NCBI GenBank assembly: GCA_027485645.1 | Contig: JAIXQR010000004.1 | Span: forward strand, 1-64,000 | Direction: 5' to 3' | Source of the DNA: a bacterium | GTDB taxonomy: Bacteria; Armatimonadota; Fimbriimonadia; Fimbriimonadales; Fimbriimonadaceae | Length of the DNA: 64,000 nucleotides | Part shown: piece by piece, positions 10,178 to 14,587 of the stretch | How the letters are laid out: every line of letters begins with the position of its first letter | Position numbering within the stretch: position 1 is the stretch's first letter | Made by a program: the position numbers and the translations under genes | Notes under the pieces: model-generated | What the model was told of the DNA's origin: nothing | Seen by the model: the letters and a program-made list of their open reading frames with translations, nothing else | Database searches by the model: none

Positions 10178-11053
10178 CTATCCGACTCGGTACGTTTCCG
10201 ACTCGTATTGCGGGTAATCCAAGGTTGCATACAGCTCTGCCCTGGTTCGCATCCGGTCTAGGAAACCGGCTTGCGTTCCATGTTCGATCAGGAGTGCATA
10301 CGACTCGTCGAGCGCTTTCAGCATCACGCGAAACGCGGTCATTGGGAAGATGACCATTTCGTAGCGCATTTCTTCGAATTCCGCGACGGAGATGAGGGGT
10401 GTTTTGCCAAACTCAGTCATGTTTGCGAGCAGCGGGGCTTTGACTTGGTCCCGGAAGATTTGGAACTCCTCCTTTGAAGTCAGTCCCTCCGGGAAGATTG
10501 CATCGGCACCAGCGTTGACGTAGCTGTTTGCTCTTTCGATTGCTGCATCTAGACCCTCGACGCCGCGAGCATCGGTGCGGGCGATGAGAACGAAGTTCGG
10601 GTCTCTCTTTGCGCTGACCGCCGCCGCGATCTTCTCTTGCATCTGCTCGGTCGGGATCACGGCTTTTCCGTCCAGGTGGCCACAGCGCTTAGGGGAGACT
10701 TGGTCTTCGAGGTGGATTCCCGCAAGGCCCGCCCGCTCCATTTCTAGCACGGTCCGGACGACATTCCAGGCTTCGCCAAAGCCGGTATCGGCGTCGGCGA
10801 TCACCGGGACCGGGGCGACTTGGGTGATGGCAGCGGCTTGGGCAGCGAACTCATTCAGTCCTGCCAGCGCGATATCTGGTACGCCGAGGTAGGCGTTGGT
10901 GACCCCGGCGCCGGAGATGTAGAGGGCACTTGCTCCGGCCTTGGTAGCGCTGAGGGCGCTGATGCCATTGAAGACGCCCGGCAGGACGACGGTCCCTTGA
11001 GCGAATTGTTCGCGCAGGGCGGTTCCGGGGGATGGGATAGAGGGGCGAAGCAT
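10178..11053 (-). CDS. prpB: Methylisocitrate lyase / PEP mutase family lyase
   Basis: A 291-residue TIM-barrel protein of the isocitrate lyase/PEP mutase superfamily. The signature KRCGH (122-126, catalytic Cys124), metal-binding Asp87/Asp89 (IADADTGFG) and HLEDQ (114-118) are all present. The length fits 2-methylisocitrate lyase, which splits methylisocitrate to pyruvate and succinate. It is transcribed with the citrate-synthase-family gene, forming a minimal prpBC pair for propionyl-CoA disposal. Oxaloacetate hydrolase or carboxy-PEP mutase are less likely alternatives given that partner. A TAGCGT box lies six bases before the ATG and there is no ribosome site. Confidence 0.86.
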   Translation of the reverse strand: MLRPSIPSPGTALREQFAQGTVVLPGVFNGISALSATKAGASALYISGAGVTNAYLGVPDIALAGLNEFAAQAAAITQVAPVPVIADADTGFGEAWNVVRTVLEMERAGLAGIHLEDQVSPKRCGHLDGKAVIPTEQMQEKIAAAVSAKRDPNFVLIARTDARGVEGLDAAIERANSYVNAGADAIFPEGLTSKEEFQIFRDQVKAPLLANMTEFGKTPLISVAEFEEMRYEMVIFPMTAFRVMLKALDESYALLIEHGTQAGFLDRMRTRAELYATLDYPQYESETYRVG

Positions 11054-11433
11054 AGGGAGACGCTACCCGGTGGGGGCGCTCCGGAGGGGATCGCTCGGGT
11101 TTGACAATCAAACGGACTTCGCCATTAACGGTGCTTTGAGTTCGAGGTTGAAACTCGTTCTGAACCTGCAGATGTTGCTCGCTGGCAACGGCGACGCTGA
11201 ACTTCCAGAATGGTAATAACGGTCCGAAGGGTTGTTCACCAGGGATTTCGTATCTGCGATCGATCCGACGTGGTGGCACTTGCATGGCCTGCCATTTGAC
11301 CGCGTGATTTGGCCAGACGGGGCCGACATTCTGGTGTGAAAACCTTTGAAATCGCCAAGGTATTTTGGCGATTTCCGCAGTGTTGCTACTCACTTTGAGG
11401 AGTGGCAGTGTACGATTTGTAGTCGAGGGCACG
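11054..11433. other. Gap between prpB and small membrane genes
   Basis: About 380 bp without a convincing gene. A minus-strand reading across about 11090-11340 has protein-like composition (RRYEIPGEQPFGPLLPFWKF), but it has no good start and runs on into prpB in another frame, so it may be a decayed gene fragment. It also contains the promoter region of prpB. Confidence 0.4.
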
Positions 11434-11676
11434 ATGAAGAAGCTAAAAGCAGCGATCTTGGTATCTGTCGTTCTGTATCTCGCGTTATGGGCGCTCTACA
11501 TTTGGTCGCCCACGCTGATGAAGCCTATGCTGATCGGTTCTGGCGTCGGCGTCGGCATCATTGCAGCCATTGCTTTTCGAGAAAAGCACGGGCCAGGGAA
11601 AGCTTTACTCCTTTCGATTCCAGCGATTGCGCTTCACTACGCACTCTATATTATCGGTTCAAGGTTCGTGGGATGA
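11434..11676 (+). CDS. Small membrane protein, unknown function
   Basis: An 80-residue protein from ATG 11434, preceded by GAGGG. It has three hydrophobic stretches (residues about 5-24, 31-47 and 58-74). No family is recognised. It is first of three small same-strand membrane-protein genes between prpB and the DUF559 unit. Confidence 0.6.
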   Translation: MKKLKAAILVSVVLYLALWALYIWSPTLMKPMLIGSGVGVGIIAAIAFREKHGPGKALLLSIPAIALHYALYIIGSRFVG

Positions 11677-11739
11677 ACCTTTGGACTGCCGCTCTTCGGT
11701 TCGGCGAGCGTTCTCCATTGACTACTCTCGAAAGGTGCA

Positions 11740-11985
11740 ATGACCAAATCTGATCTTGCATTCGTTTCGGGCTTTATCGCGGCGTATGCGATTCCTTGGA
11801 TGCTCTACTTTTGGTGGCCTGGAGTCGCGATTGGGGCGCTTGCGCTCGCGGGATGGGGAACTTGCACAATCGTGTTTAAGGGCAGCAGGACAAAGTTCGG
11901 AGTCGGTCCTGCGGTTGTCCTCACGAGCTTTATGTTCATCTTCCATTTTAGTTCGATGATCCTCGCGTCCTGGTTTCTAAAATGA
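11740..11985 (+). CDS. Small membrane protein, unknown function
   Basis: An 81-residue protein with three hydrophobic segments (about residues 6-24, 29-45 and 56-78) and a basic loop FKGSRTKFG. AAAGG lies just before the ATG. Its stop overlaps the next start (ATGA), so the two are probably translationally coupled. No domain is recognised. Confidence 0.65.
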   Translation: MTKSDLAFVSGFIAAYAIPWMLYFWWPGVAIGALALAGWGTCTIVFKGSRTKFGVGPAVVLTSFMFIFHFSSMILASWFLK

Positions 11986-12377
11986 AGGCAATGCTTCGCG
12001 AGCAGATGACACTTGCGCGGGAGTGTTCTCCGCAGTTTCTGTGGGTCGCCGTGATGCTCGTTGCGGTCTATTCTCCGCGCTCGGTCATCGCTCTCGGATT
12101 ATCGACCGTTGCGTACTTGTTCTTCGCTTACCTTGAGAACCAGGAGCGGCCATATTGGGGGCAGGTTCGGGCGGGCGTTTTGGCGACGGCAGCGGCAGCT
12201 TCGCTGTTTTTTCCAGGCTGGCAGCGTGAATTGATCTTTGTTGGATTGAACCTTCTTAGGGTGCTAGATGTTTACTTTGAATTGAGGGGTGTGAAGCCAC
12301 TTGAGCGGCTCGCGCGTTCCACAAGCTCCGCGGCTACGATCCATTACATGGTTGCCTTCTTCTTTTTGAAGCGGTGA
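11982..12377 (+). CDS. Small membrane protein, unknown function
   Basis: A 131-residue protein that overlaps the preceding gene by four bases. Hydrophobic segments lie at about 20-47 (FLWVAVMLVAVYSPRSVIAL region), 60-78, 83-96 and 115-130. A basic segment EERLARSTS-like and a terminal FFFLKR suggest an inside C-terminus. No family is recognised. It is likely co-expressed with the upstream small membrane protein. Confidence 0.65.
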   Translation: MKAMLREQMTLARECSPQFLWVAVMLVAVYSPRSVIALGLSTVAYLFFAYLENQERPYWGQVRAGVLATAAAASLFFPGWQRELIFVGLNLLRVLDVYFELRGVKPLERLARSTSSAATIHYMVAFFFLKR

Positions 12378-12408
12378 TTTAGGAATGCGGCTAAGAGTTG
12401 CCGCTGTA

Positions 12409-12463
12409 CGGCTCTCCACCCCCAACCCCCTCCTCTCGCTTGAGGCGAAAGGAGGGGGCTCAC
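12409..12463. repeat. 55-bp direct repeat with hairpin, copy C
   Basis: Identical over 55 bp to 12866-12920. It contains an imperfect inverted repeat: CCCCCTCCTCTCGC pairs with GGCGAAAGGAGGGGG around TTGA. It ends with GGGCTCAC, three bases before the stop of the DUF559 gene. Confidence 0.9.
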
Positions 12464-12466
12464 GCT

Positions 12467-12844
12467 TTACTGCGTTCGTTCATGGCAGATTCTTTCTACT
12501 TCCCGAATCCAGGCTGAATACCGGTCCTGCTCGTTGTGGAAGAGGTCGAGCGACGGAATTCTGAGGGTTAGAATTCCAAACTCCGCTAGATACGCGTCTC
12601 GGCGTTGGTCTTGCTCGATTCGATCGAGATGCTGTTCTCCGTCGATTTCGATGCATAGCTTCGCTTTCGGAACATAGAAGTCAAGGAAGTAAGGCCCGAT
12701 GGCGACTTGGCGGCGGAAGCGGAAACCGAGAAGGTCCTTTCGAACGGCGGCCCAGAACCATTGCTCGCTGACGCTCATGTTGGAGCGGAGTTTTCGGGCT
12801 TGAAGTTTTGCTTCTTCAGACTGATTAAGTCTTAGCTTCTTCAT
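12467..12844 (-). CDS. DUF559 (Vsr-like fold) endonuclease-domain protein
   Basis: A 125-residue protein of the DUF559 family, a PD-(D/E)XK/Vsr-like fold. Candidate catalytic residues are Glu27 (VSEQWFW), Asp55 (FLDFYVP) and Glu66/Asp68 (CIEIDGEQH), in the usual order FRFRRQ, LDFY, IEIDG, then a C-terminal LRIP. Length is typical. The biochemical role of the family is not established; DNA cleavage or nicking is inferred from the fold. The gene fills the space between two identical 55-bp repeats, 3 bp from one and 21 bp from the other, so gene and repeats look like one unit. Confidence 0.88.
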   Translation of the reverse strand: MKKLRLNQSEEAKLQARKLRSNMSVSEQWFWAAVRKDLLGFRFRRQVAIGPYFLDFYVPKAKLCIEIDGEQHLDRIEQDQRRDAYLAEFGILTLRIPSLDLFHNEQDRYSAWIREVERICHERTQ

Positions 12845-12865
12845 GGTTTACGAGTTACCTCTGAT

Positions 12866-12920
12866 CGGCTCTCCACCCCCAACCCCCTCCTCTCGCTTGA
12901 GGCGAAAGGAGGGGGCTCAC
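12866..12920. repeat. 55-bp direct repeat with hairpin, copy D
   Basis: Identical to copy C at 12409-12463 and in the same orientation. It lies 21 bp upstream of the DUF559 start and one base from the stop codon of the ABC ATPase gene that follows. Confidence 0.9.
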
Positions 12921-12921
12921 T

Positions 12922-13878
12922 CTAGTTGATATTAAGCCAACAGGCGGATTGGTGGCCTTGGCCGATTTCCGTTAGCGGTGGGTTGGTGGCGCACTTGTCG
13001 TGGCGGTGGGTGCAGCGGGGGGAGAAGGGGCACTCGGGGCCGAGGGTGGCGAAGTCGGGTGGGGAGCCAGAGATGGTTTCTAGGCGGGTTTGGCCGACTC
13101 GCGGCAGCGCGCTGAGCAGGGCCTTGGTGTACGGCATCGTCGGCTCGCGGAGGACCTGCGGGGCGGTGCCGAGTTCGACGATTTGGCCGGCATAGAAAAC
13201 GGCGATGCGTTGGCTCACCGCGCCGATGGCGCCGATGTCGTGGCTCACGAGCATGACGGCAACGCCTTCTTGTTGTTGCAAGTCGCGGAGCAGGCGGAGG
13301 ATTTGGGCCTGAAGGGTGACGTCCAGAGCGGTAGTCGGCTCGTCGGCGAGGAGGACTTTTGGCTTACAGGCGAAGGCCATCGCGATGACGATTCGCTGCC
13401 GTTGACCGCCGCTGAGCTGGTGCGGGAACTTGCTGGCGGAGGCTTCGGGTGCCGGGACGCCGACTTGGTCGAGAAGCTCGATGGCGCGCTTGAAGGCGGC
13501 GTCTTTCGACATGCCGTGGTGCAGTACCAACGATTCGCCGATTTGGTGGCCCACCTTCATCATCGGGTTCAGGCTGGTGAACGGGTCTTGCATCACGAGG
13601 GCAATTTGTTCGCCGCGAATCTTTCGGAGTTCCTTCTCGGGCAAGCCGACGAGCTCGCGGCCGTCGAGCTTGATGGAGCCGCCAGAGATTCGGCCCGGGG
13701 GAATGAGCATTCCCATGAGAGCGAAGGCGGTCATGGACTTTCCGCAGCCGGACTCGCCAACCACGCCGAGGGTCTCTCCGGCAATCAGATCGAAGCTAAC
13801 GCCGCGCAAGATACGGGTCGATCCGAACGAAACTTCGAGATCACGGACTTCCAAAACGGCCACGCCTGAGTATGGCAT
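12922..13878 (-). CDS. OppD/DppD-type peptide ABC transporter ATPase
   Basis: A 318-residue ATPase with Walker A GESGCGKS (41-48), signature LSGGQRQR (155-162) and Walker B VLLADEP (175-181). The C-terminal oligopeptide/dipeptide extension carries CPFSPRCTHRHDKC, the cysteine pattern that binds an Fe-S cluster or zinc in some family members. Such ATPases power dipeptide/oligopeptide importers. No permease, binding protein or OppF partner is next to it, so it is an orphan here. The stop directly abuts repeat D. The start (MPYSGVAVLEV) is divergent from the response regulator gene. Confidence 0.88.
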   Translation of the reverse strand: MPYSGVAVLEVRDLEVSFGSTRILRGVSFDLIAGETLGVVGESGCGKSMTAFALMGMLIPPGRISGGSIKLDGRELVGLPEKELRKIRGEQIALVMQDPFTSLNPMMKVGHQIGESLVLHHGMSKDAAFKRAIELLDQVGVPAPEASASKFPHQLSGGQRQRIVIAMAFACKPKVLLADEPTTALDVTLQAQILRLLRDLQQQEGVAVMLVSHDIGAIGAVSQRIAVFYAGQIVELGTAPQVLREPTMPYTKALLSALPRVGQTRLETISGSPPDFATLGPECPFSPRCTHRHDKCATNPPLTEIGQGHQSACWLNIN

Positions 13879-13887
13879 CGTGGATTT

Positions 13888-13924
13888 TTGTACGTTTTCG
13901 CCGGTAGCCCGTATAATCGTGCTG
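13888..13924 (+). promoter_or_regulatory. Consensus promoter next to ATG
   Basis: TTGTAC (13888-13893), an 18-bp spacer, consensus TATAAT (13912-13917), then seven bases to ATG 13925. There is no ribosome-binding site, so a leaderless transcript is predicted. Confidence 0.65.
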
Positions 13925-14587
13925 ATGTCGCAACAGATTCGGATCGTTATTGCGGATGACGAGGCGCCTTACCGAAAGGCCCTAGAGAAGACGCTGACCC
14001 TTGCGCCGGAGTGCGAGATCTTAGCCGTTTGTAAGGACGGCCAAGAAGCACTGGACGCCTGCCTTTCGGATCCGCCAGATGTTTTGCTCACCGACATCAA
14101 CATGCCGCGGATGAACGGCATCGAGCTGGTGCGACGCATCCTTCGACAAGAGAAGGGCGTGAACGTGGTCATTCTTACCGTTAAGGAAGATGACGACACG
14201 GTCTACGAAGCCTTCCGAGCCGGAGCTTTGGGCTACTTGCTGAAGACCTCCACGCCGCAGGATGTTGTCGATGCGATTCGACTGGCCGAGCGCGGAGAAG
14301 CCAAGATCACCCCGCGAATTGCGAGCAAGGTTCTCGAAGACTTCCGCCGCGTTAAGGAAGAAGAGGAGATCGACGACACCGAGCTGTACGTGCTCAGCGA
14401 TCGCGAGCAGGAGATTCTTGACCTCGTTGCCCAGGGGCTCCGAAACAAGGAAATCGCGGCGAAGCTGACGATTGCCGAAAAGACGGTGAAGAACCACGTT
14501 TCCAACATCCTGAAGGCGCTTCAGGTGAACAGCCGAACCGAAGCCGCGATGAAGGCCGTGAAGGCTCGACTCGTCGAAAAGGCCTGA
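13925..14587 (+). CDS. NarL/LuxR-type response regulator
   Basis: A 220-residue two-domain regulator. The receiver domain has acidic pair Asp11/Asp12, phosphoacceptor Asp57 (LLTDINMP), Thr85 and Lys107. A LuxR-type helix-turn-helix at about 157-215 reads LSDREQEILDLVAQGLRNKEIA, then KTVKNHVSNIL. It should bind DNA as a dimer when phosphorylated by a histidine kinase, but no sensor kinase is adjacent. The start was chosen at ATG 13925 because of the consensus promoter just upstream; longer frames run antisense through the ABC gene. Confidence 0.92.
   Translation: MSQQIRIVIADDEAPYRKALEKTLTLAPECEILAVCKDGQEALDACLSDPPDVLLTDINMPRMNGIELVRRILRQEKGVNVVILTVKEDDDTVYEAFRAGALGYLLKTSTPQDVVDAIRLAERGEAKITPRIASKVLEDFRRVKEEEEIDDTELYVLSDREQEILDLVAQGLRNKEIAAKLTIAEKTVKNHVSNILKALQVNSRTEAAMKAVKARLVEKA

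Follow-up and report, generated by a model that had tools for sequence, protein, structure and literature searches.

A DUF559 nuclease gene between REP-like palindromes is a probable autonomous mobile element in a Fimbriimonadaceae genome

Main finding

A 64,000-nucleotide stretch of Fimbriimonadaceae DNA (hereafter the window, meaning that whole stretch) carries a stand-alone DUF559 gene, predicted to encode a nuclease of Vsr-like fold, with a REP-like palindrome on each side. We consider it likely, with a probability of about 0.7, that this unit represents a single autonomous copy of a mobile element that comprises the nuclease gene and its two palindromes. At the level of sequence, comparison across related genomes shows an association between palindrome and nuclease, dispersal of the palindromes, duplication of entire units, covariation of stem and protein among close pairs, and a consistent polarity of the palindromes. 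The recurrence of this pairing in many bacteria suggests a kind of mobile element that has so far gone unrecognised. In the open-access papers searched, we found none that connects DUF559 with repeats of this kind, and novelty is accordingly provisional.

A nuclease gene fitted between identical palindromic repeats

Two 55-bp copies, spaced 457 bp apart, are identical over their full length and share the same orientation, and each contains an inverted repeat with 14-nt arms that are 93% complementary (one mismatch). An earlier sequence-only reading had described this arrangement, and a repeat search confirmed it. The same reading had the gene fitting between the copies with 3 bp and 21 bp to spare and the right copy stopping one base short of the next gene's stop codon, and the coordinates agree on both counts: the right repeat ends at 12920, and the stop codon of the oppD-like gene (12922-12924) begins after one intervening base. 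The features of the region, in window positions, are as follows.

10178..11053, - strand: host gene of the PEP-mutase/isocitrate-lyase family (prpB-like), whose homologue directly follows oppD in two relatives (G017 and G011)
12392..12408, no strand assigned: the left copy's counterpart of the weak repeat extension
12409..12463, - strand: downstream palindromic repeat copy (55-bp identical core), reading GTGAG-hairpin-TTGGGGGTGGAGAGCC, with its tail directed away from the gene
12426..12458, - strand: hairpin CCCCCTCCTTTCGC(ctcaa)GCGAGAGGAGGGGG, with one T.G stem mismatch on the - strand
12467..12844, - strand: stand-alone DUF559 nuclease gene, 125 aa, predicted Vsr-like PD-(D/E)XK fold; dN/dS 0.08 against the sister species
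12849..12865, no strand assigned: weak repeat extension in the interval between tail and gene start, like 12392-12408 at about 12 of 17 positions
12866..12920, - strand: upstream palindromic repeat copy, tail directed at the gene start
12883..12915, - strand: hairpin of the upstream copy, with the identical T.G mismatch
12922..13878, - strand: host gene, an oppD/dppD-like ABC transporter ATPase, with its stop codon next to the right repeat; it borders the empty junction on one side

On the - strand, which also encodes the gene, each copy reads GAG-CCCCCTCCTTTCGC-ctcaa-GCGAGAGGAGGGGG-TTGGGGGTGGAGAGCC: a hairpin whose stem has a single T.G mispair, and then a G-rich tail. When folded as single-stranded DNA, the tail strand forms one long stem, and the opposite strand is broken by an internal A.C. 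The full repeat reaches about 75 bp at 92% identity if the leftward extension of the core, roughly 17 bp long, is included. A 20-mer of the repeat is expected by chance, at up to three mismatches, 0.01 times per window, which places the repeats far above chance. An Rfam search of positions 11000-14000 returned no match near the gathering score, and a known RNA element was rejected as the identity of the repeats.

The 125-aa product matches Pfam DUF559 (PF04480) at 86.6 bits, against a curated cut-off of 20.6, and has no match to Y1_Tnp in the same profile search. Residues E27, D55, E66, D68, H72 and D79 are among those invariant across 14 relatives. An AlphaFold2 model (pLDDT 90) resembles the DUF559 structure 3hrl (Z 15.2), the homing nuclease I-Bth0305I (3r3p_B; Z 11.6, rmsd 2.2 over 94 residues) and Vsr (1cw0; Z 10.3, rmsd 2.5 over 102 residues), and the fold comparison with Vsr and Caulobacter VsrA gave a second Z of 9.4. 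The predicted structure thus matches a Vsr-like PD-(D/E)XK fold; the sequence-only reading had supposed a Vsr-like fold. Vsr of E. coli is a nickase that acts on T:G mismatches. Identification as a defence gene was rejected, PADLOC matches being only partial and weak.

Palindromes accompany DUF559 genes across genomes

We compared DUF559 neighbourhoods across 61 related genomes, largely metagenome assemblies, 42 of which contain DUF559 matches, and searched them for a C/T-armed hairpin with a G-rich tail of the TTGGGGGTGRGG type on one side. Many DUF559 loci are bracketed by direct or inverted hairpin repeats, the sequences of which differ from locus to locus. Under a strict pattern, hairpins were enriched 69-fold in the 250 bp upstream and 93-fold in the 250 bp downstream over each genome's own density, the enrichment falling to near background beyond 600 bp from DUF559, and 20 of 87 loci had hairpins on both sides where 0.005 were expected. 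A looser detector, applied to about 120 stand-alone DUF559 loci, scored close to the gene in 75/116 flanks on the upstream side and 68/115 on the downstream side, versus 2/113, 1/112, 2/110 and 4/107 distal flanks (1-4%). Hairpins stood on both sides of 57 of 120 stand-alone units and in neither flank of 31 of 120, about a quarter. Among copies that could be oriented, the tail pointed towards the gene in 41 of 51 upstream and 38 of 52 downstream, which makes the inverted arrangement the rule and the direct arrangement of the window an exception. Comparable flanks were found at DUF559 loci of Sphingomonas and its relatives, of Betaproteobacteria and of Verrucomicrobiota. Long open reading frames with a DUF559 domain scored in 7 of 10 upstream near flanks, and the association may therefore extend past small genes.

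The same survey bears on whether the nuclease is only a passenger, with the palindromes being either terminators or ordinary REP-type elements that a different enzyme (a RAYT, for example) moves, and the DUF559 genes trapped between copies. REPs in general prefer sites downstream of coding regions (PMC3733652), and the window's own genome contains two adjacent Y1_Tnp genes of IS200/RAYT type (G000, C3:245656-247067). Hairpins are also abundant in some genomes without a DUF559 match (42 in G020, 169 in G041, 197 in G047 and 116 in G055), which accounts for the weak hairpin-DUF559 correlation over the 61 genomes (rho 0.29; 0.69 within the genus). The genomes surveyed contain many RAYT-type Y1_Tnp genes, but none of 41 such loci had a C/T-armed hairpin on either side, and many were bracketed by different palindromes with GTAG/CTAC-like tags. 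RAYTs were thus rejected as the mover of the C/T-armed palindrome, and these genomes have two palindrome-enzyme pairings side by side. Given also the 69-93x enrichment at DUF559 over genome density, the stem-protein covariation of close pairs (below), and, for the terminator version, a G-rich tail rather than a T-run, we judge the passenger explanation improbable.

Solo palindromes and duplicated units

Absence of the repeat elsewhere had been named in the sequence-only reading as an observation that would speak against a mobile unit; the palindrome is in fact found both elsewhere in the genome and in relatives. In the window's own genome, four solo copies share this kind of stem but differ in their loops, and the 20-mer of tail plus arm occurs in five exact copies, two of them in the unit. 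Three of this genome's solo copies were searched for in the sister species (G014), where the matches lie near contig ends. Another relative, G008, has about 35 solo copies, one of which adjoins a DUF559 gene; 24 were aligned and give the consensus TCCGGAG-CCCCCTCCTCGTCGATG-loop-GTGCGATGAGGAGGGGG-TTGGGGGTGGAGAA-(A/T)TCCGG, with variable loops. The TCCGGA at both ends of these copies may be a target, or a terminus or part of the element. Several of the G008 copies (among L257-L276) directly precede another palindrome, TCCGGAAGGACCGCCGCTCTCCAGAGCGGC, joined at TCCGGA.

Further repeats were observed in the same genomes. Another family of palindromes, TCTCCATCGGAATGGAGAGGGGG, is present at 85-115 of the window and beside first-family solo copies at three loci of the same genome (L117, L118 and L119), a juxtaposition that resembles REP mosaics (BIMEs). 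In G044, which has no DUF559 match, hairpins of the CCCCCTCCTCGTG..ATGAGGAGGGGG type form regular arrays at C7:97546-98101 and C16:1956-2419, with spacings of 260 bp and 160 bp. The window also has a direct repeat of 141 bp at 86% identity (1695-1835 and 1979-2119).

Entire units have been duplicated as well. The stretch that the hairpins bound, hairpins included, is 97% identical in two loci on separate contigs of G033 (L097 and L099), whose flanks are unrelated, with no clear target-site duplication visible, and a 94% identical pair in G035 (L088 and L092) is likewise bounded by hairpins within short flanks. Downstream of L097, gene-less derivatives of the unit, each consisting of left hairpin, short spacer and right hairpin, lie in tandem and look like miniature non-autonomous copies. 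An empty-site comparison at L089 (G015 against G001 and G018) met broken synteny. DUF559 copies with internal stop codons (L070, L109, L110 and L112, in G003, G011 and G019) are compatible with a mobile gene that undergoes turnover.

Stem-protein covariation and the T.G mispair

Among non-redundant loci, between-genome DUF559 pairs with a protein similarity of at least 0.60 had a stem similarity of 0.754, against 0.617+-0.038 after permutation within taxonomic groups, and none of 5000 permutations reached the observed value. A CTTTCG/CGAGAG stem with a T.G mispair is common to one protein clade across two bacterial families. Over all between-genome pairs, the rank correlation of protein and stem similarity was nil, which confines the signal to close pairs and weakens the covariation claim, although such a result is understandable if just close relatives retain comparable stems. 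Mismatches in 85 distinct tail-oriented stems comprised 24 T.G or G.T, versus 4 C.A and 0 A.C (binomial 9e-5), and an imbalance of about 11 to 1 persisted after manual collapse of loci and clades (binomial 0.003). Retention of G.T could reflect an RNA hairpin instead of DNA recognition.

Insertion site and age of the window unit

The unit occupies the oppD junction in two of 20 genomes of the genus, the window's and G014, so that a position fixed in all relatives, the other observation the sequence-only reading had set against mobility, is not what the genus displays. The oppD orthologues of G017 and G011 directly adjoin a prpB-like homologue, an arrangement that suggests a lineage-specific insertion at the oppD/prpB junction. 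We infer from parsimony that oppD-prpB was the ancestral gene order; other relatives have various genes in the place following oppD. As for the earlier picture of a 512-bp unit dropped into a gene junction, the 512-bp unit is one component of a 1.87-kb separation of the two host genes in the window, which also includes three small + strand ORFs, so that this junction does not itself demonstrate a clean 512-bp insertion. These ORFs (11365-12377) probably encode membrane proteins; the 103-aa and 81-aa ones resemble tandem paralogues, and G014 is without about 300 bp there.

The comparison with G014, the closest relative compared (about 84% identical DNA), also dates the unit. Since this sister species has the unit at the identical junction, the unit is old, and a recent insertion is ruled out. 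The DUF559 genes of the two genomes differ at 57 of 375 sites (dS 0.75, dN 0.063, dN/dS 0.08), from which the protein is judged to be under purifying selection. Of 104 sites in the repeat cores, 2 have changed. Such a count is unlikely under the overall rate of the gene (7e-6), and it is low even relative to non-synonymous sites (0.05), a pattern indicating that the palindromes are conserved or homogenised. The identity of the copies is therefore no sign of a recent event, one of the two explanations offered earlier. By these substitution patterns, the window unit has long been kept, with both of its parts under constraint.

The junction is relevant to two further explanations. The unit might have arrived by homing-like spread: the nuclease would make a double-stranded cut at a solo palindrome or at an adjoining TCCGGA-type site, and recombinational repair templated by a unit-bearing copy would leave repeat-DUF559-repeat there. 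Such a process would naturally give direct repeats like those in the window, and solo palindromes are available to it as potential targets. In G008, a solo palindrome from the family of that genome follows immediately on the stop codon of the oppD orthologue, where the window has its unit. The EDxHD nuclease I-Bth0305I is among the closest solved relatives besides DUF559 itself. We nevertheless regard homing as unlikely, as most units are inverted rather than direct, the L097/L099 flanks have no common sequence outside the hairpins, and no filled/empty palindrome pair was found in the genomes compared.

The nuclease could also be a repair or defence enzyme in an ordinary locus, its repeats having arisen by local duplication and been kept alike by gene conversion. 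Such an origin would suit identical copies just 457 bp apart, and a role in very-short-patch repair has been proposed for the Caulobacter DUF559 protein VsrA, which triggers SOS when its functionally linked methylase is absent (PMC12907096). Genetic data for this Caulobacter protein point to DNA damage in vivo (PMC12907096). Against a local origin stand the solo palindromes at other places in the genome, the recurrence of the architecture with different sequences across many genomes and phyla, and the empty junction in G017 and G011, and the comparative data already disfavour this explanation to the point that we give it very little weight.

Proposed mechanism and implications

For the mobile element that we favour, the nuclease would recognise the palindrome on the tail strand, folded as a single-strand hairpin, and the T.G mispair, which Vsr-fold enzymes can bind, would probably be one determinant of recognition. 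The enzyme might then nick the hairpin or adjoining DNA, and host repair or recombination could place a copy of the whole unit, or of just the palindrome, at further intergenic positions. More tentatively, and with somewhat less than even confidence, we propose a widespread class of bacterial mobile elements apart from the transposon classes now known. Its Vsr-fold nuclease would use the T.G mismatch within the palindrome to recognise that palindrome's folded single strand, and would in this way spread both itself and solo palindromes, as RAYTs do with REPs.

DUF559, a common and unexplained nuclease family, thereby gains a testable biological context, and a common orphan type of C/T-armed palindrome gains a candidate enzyme. 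If the proposal is true, REP-like populations have arisen on two or more occasions around enzymes that are unrelated to each other, and a fold from mismatch repair may have been recruited to detect a mismatch that forms part of a DNA hairpin.

Comparison with known systems

The closest parallel is the REP/RAYT system (TnpA-REP, Y1 HUH; REPtrons and REPINs). The sequence-only reading had suggested this parallel with an unrelated enzyme, and it is now backed by the enrichment, the RAYT controls, the hairpin-bounded duplicated units and the close-pair covariation. Both systems have short, imperfect, polar palindromes that are dispersed as solo copies and bracket an enzyme gene, with a stem matched to the local enzyme and a stem irregularity that is retained; E. 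coli REPs are cleaved only if the stem has its bulge (PMC8266576). They differ in the enzyme, here a predicted PD-(D/E)XK nuclease of Vsr fold and in RAYTs an HUH tyrosine transposase, and in the base of the palindrome, which here combines an arm rich in C/T with a tail of the TTGGGGGTGRGG type instead of GTAG. Both systems are found in the same genomes on separate palindromes. Of the defining features of a REPtron, the window unit thus has the flanking and solo-dispersed palindromes, and neither the Y1 HUH gene nor the GTAG tag.

CGTC-tagged REPs (Di Nocera et al. 2013) are likewise dispersed palindromes with no dedicated transposase known (PMC3733652). Their CGTC tag, AT-starting stems of 8-9 bp and CCA tails (PMC3733652) are not features of the palindrome described here, and they were rejected as the same family because stem and tag differ.

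EDxHD homing endonucleases such as I-Bth0305I resemble the unit in predicted fold (Z 11.6) and in having the nuclease gene inside the element it would spread. Here, however, there is no intron, intein or fixed target gene; palindromes bracket the gene, and the 125-aa protein is without an added DNA-binding region. Vsr and Caulobacter VsrA share the modelled fold (Z 10.3 and 9.4), and the G.T kept in many stems recalls the T:G that Vsr nicks. What sets the present nuclease apart from both is its link to palindromes.
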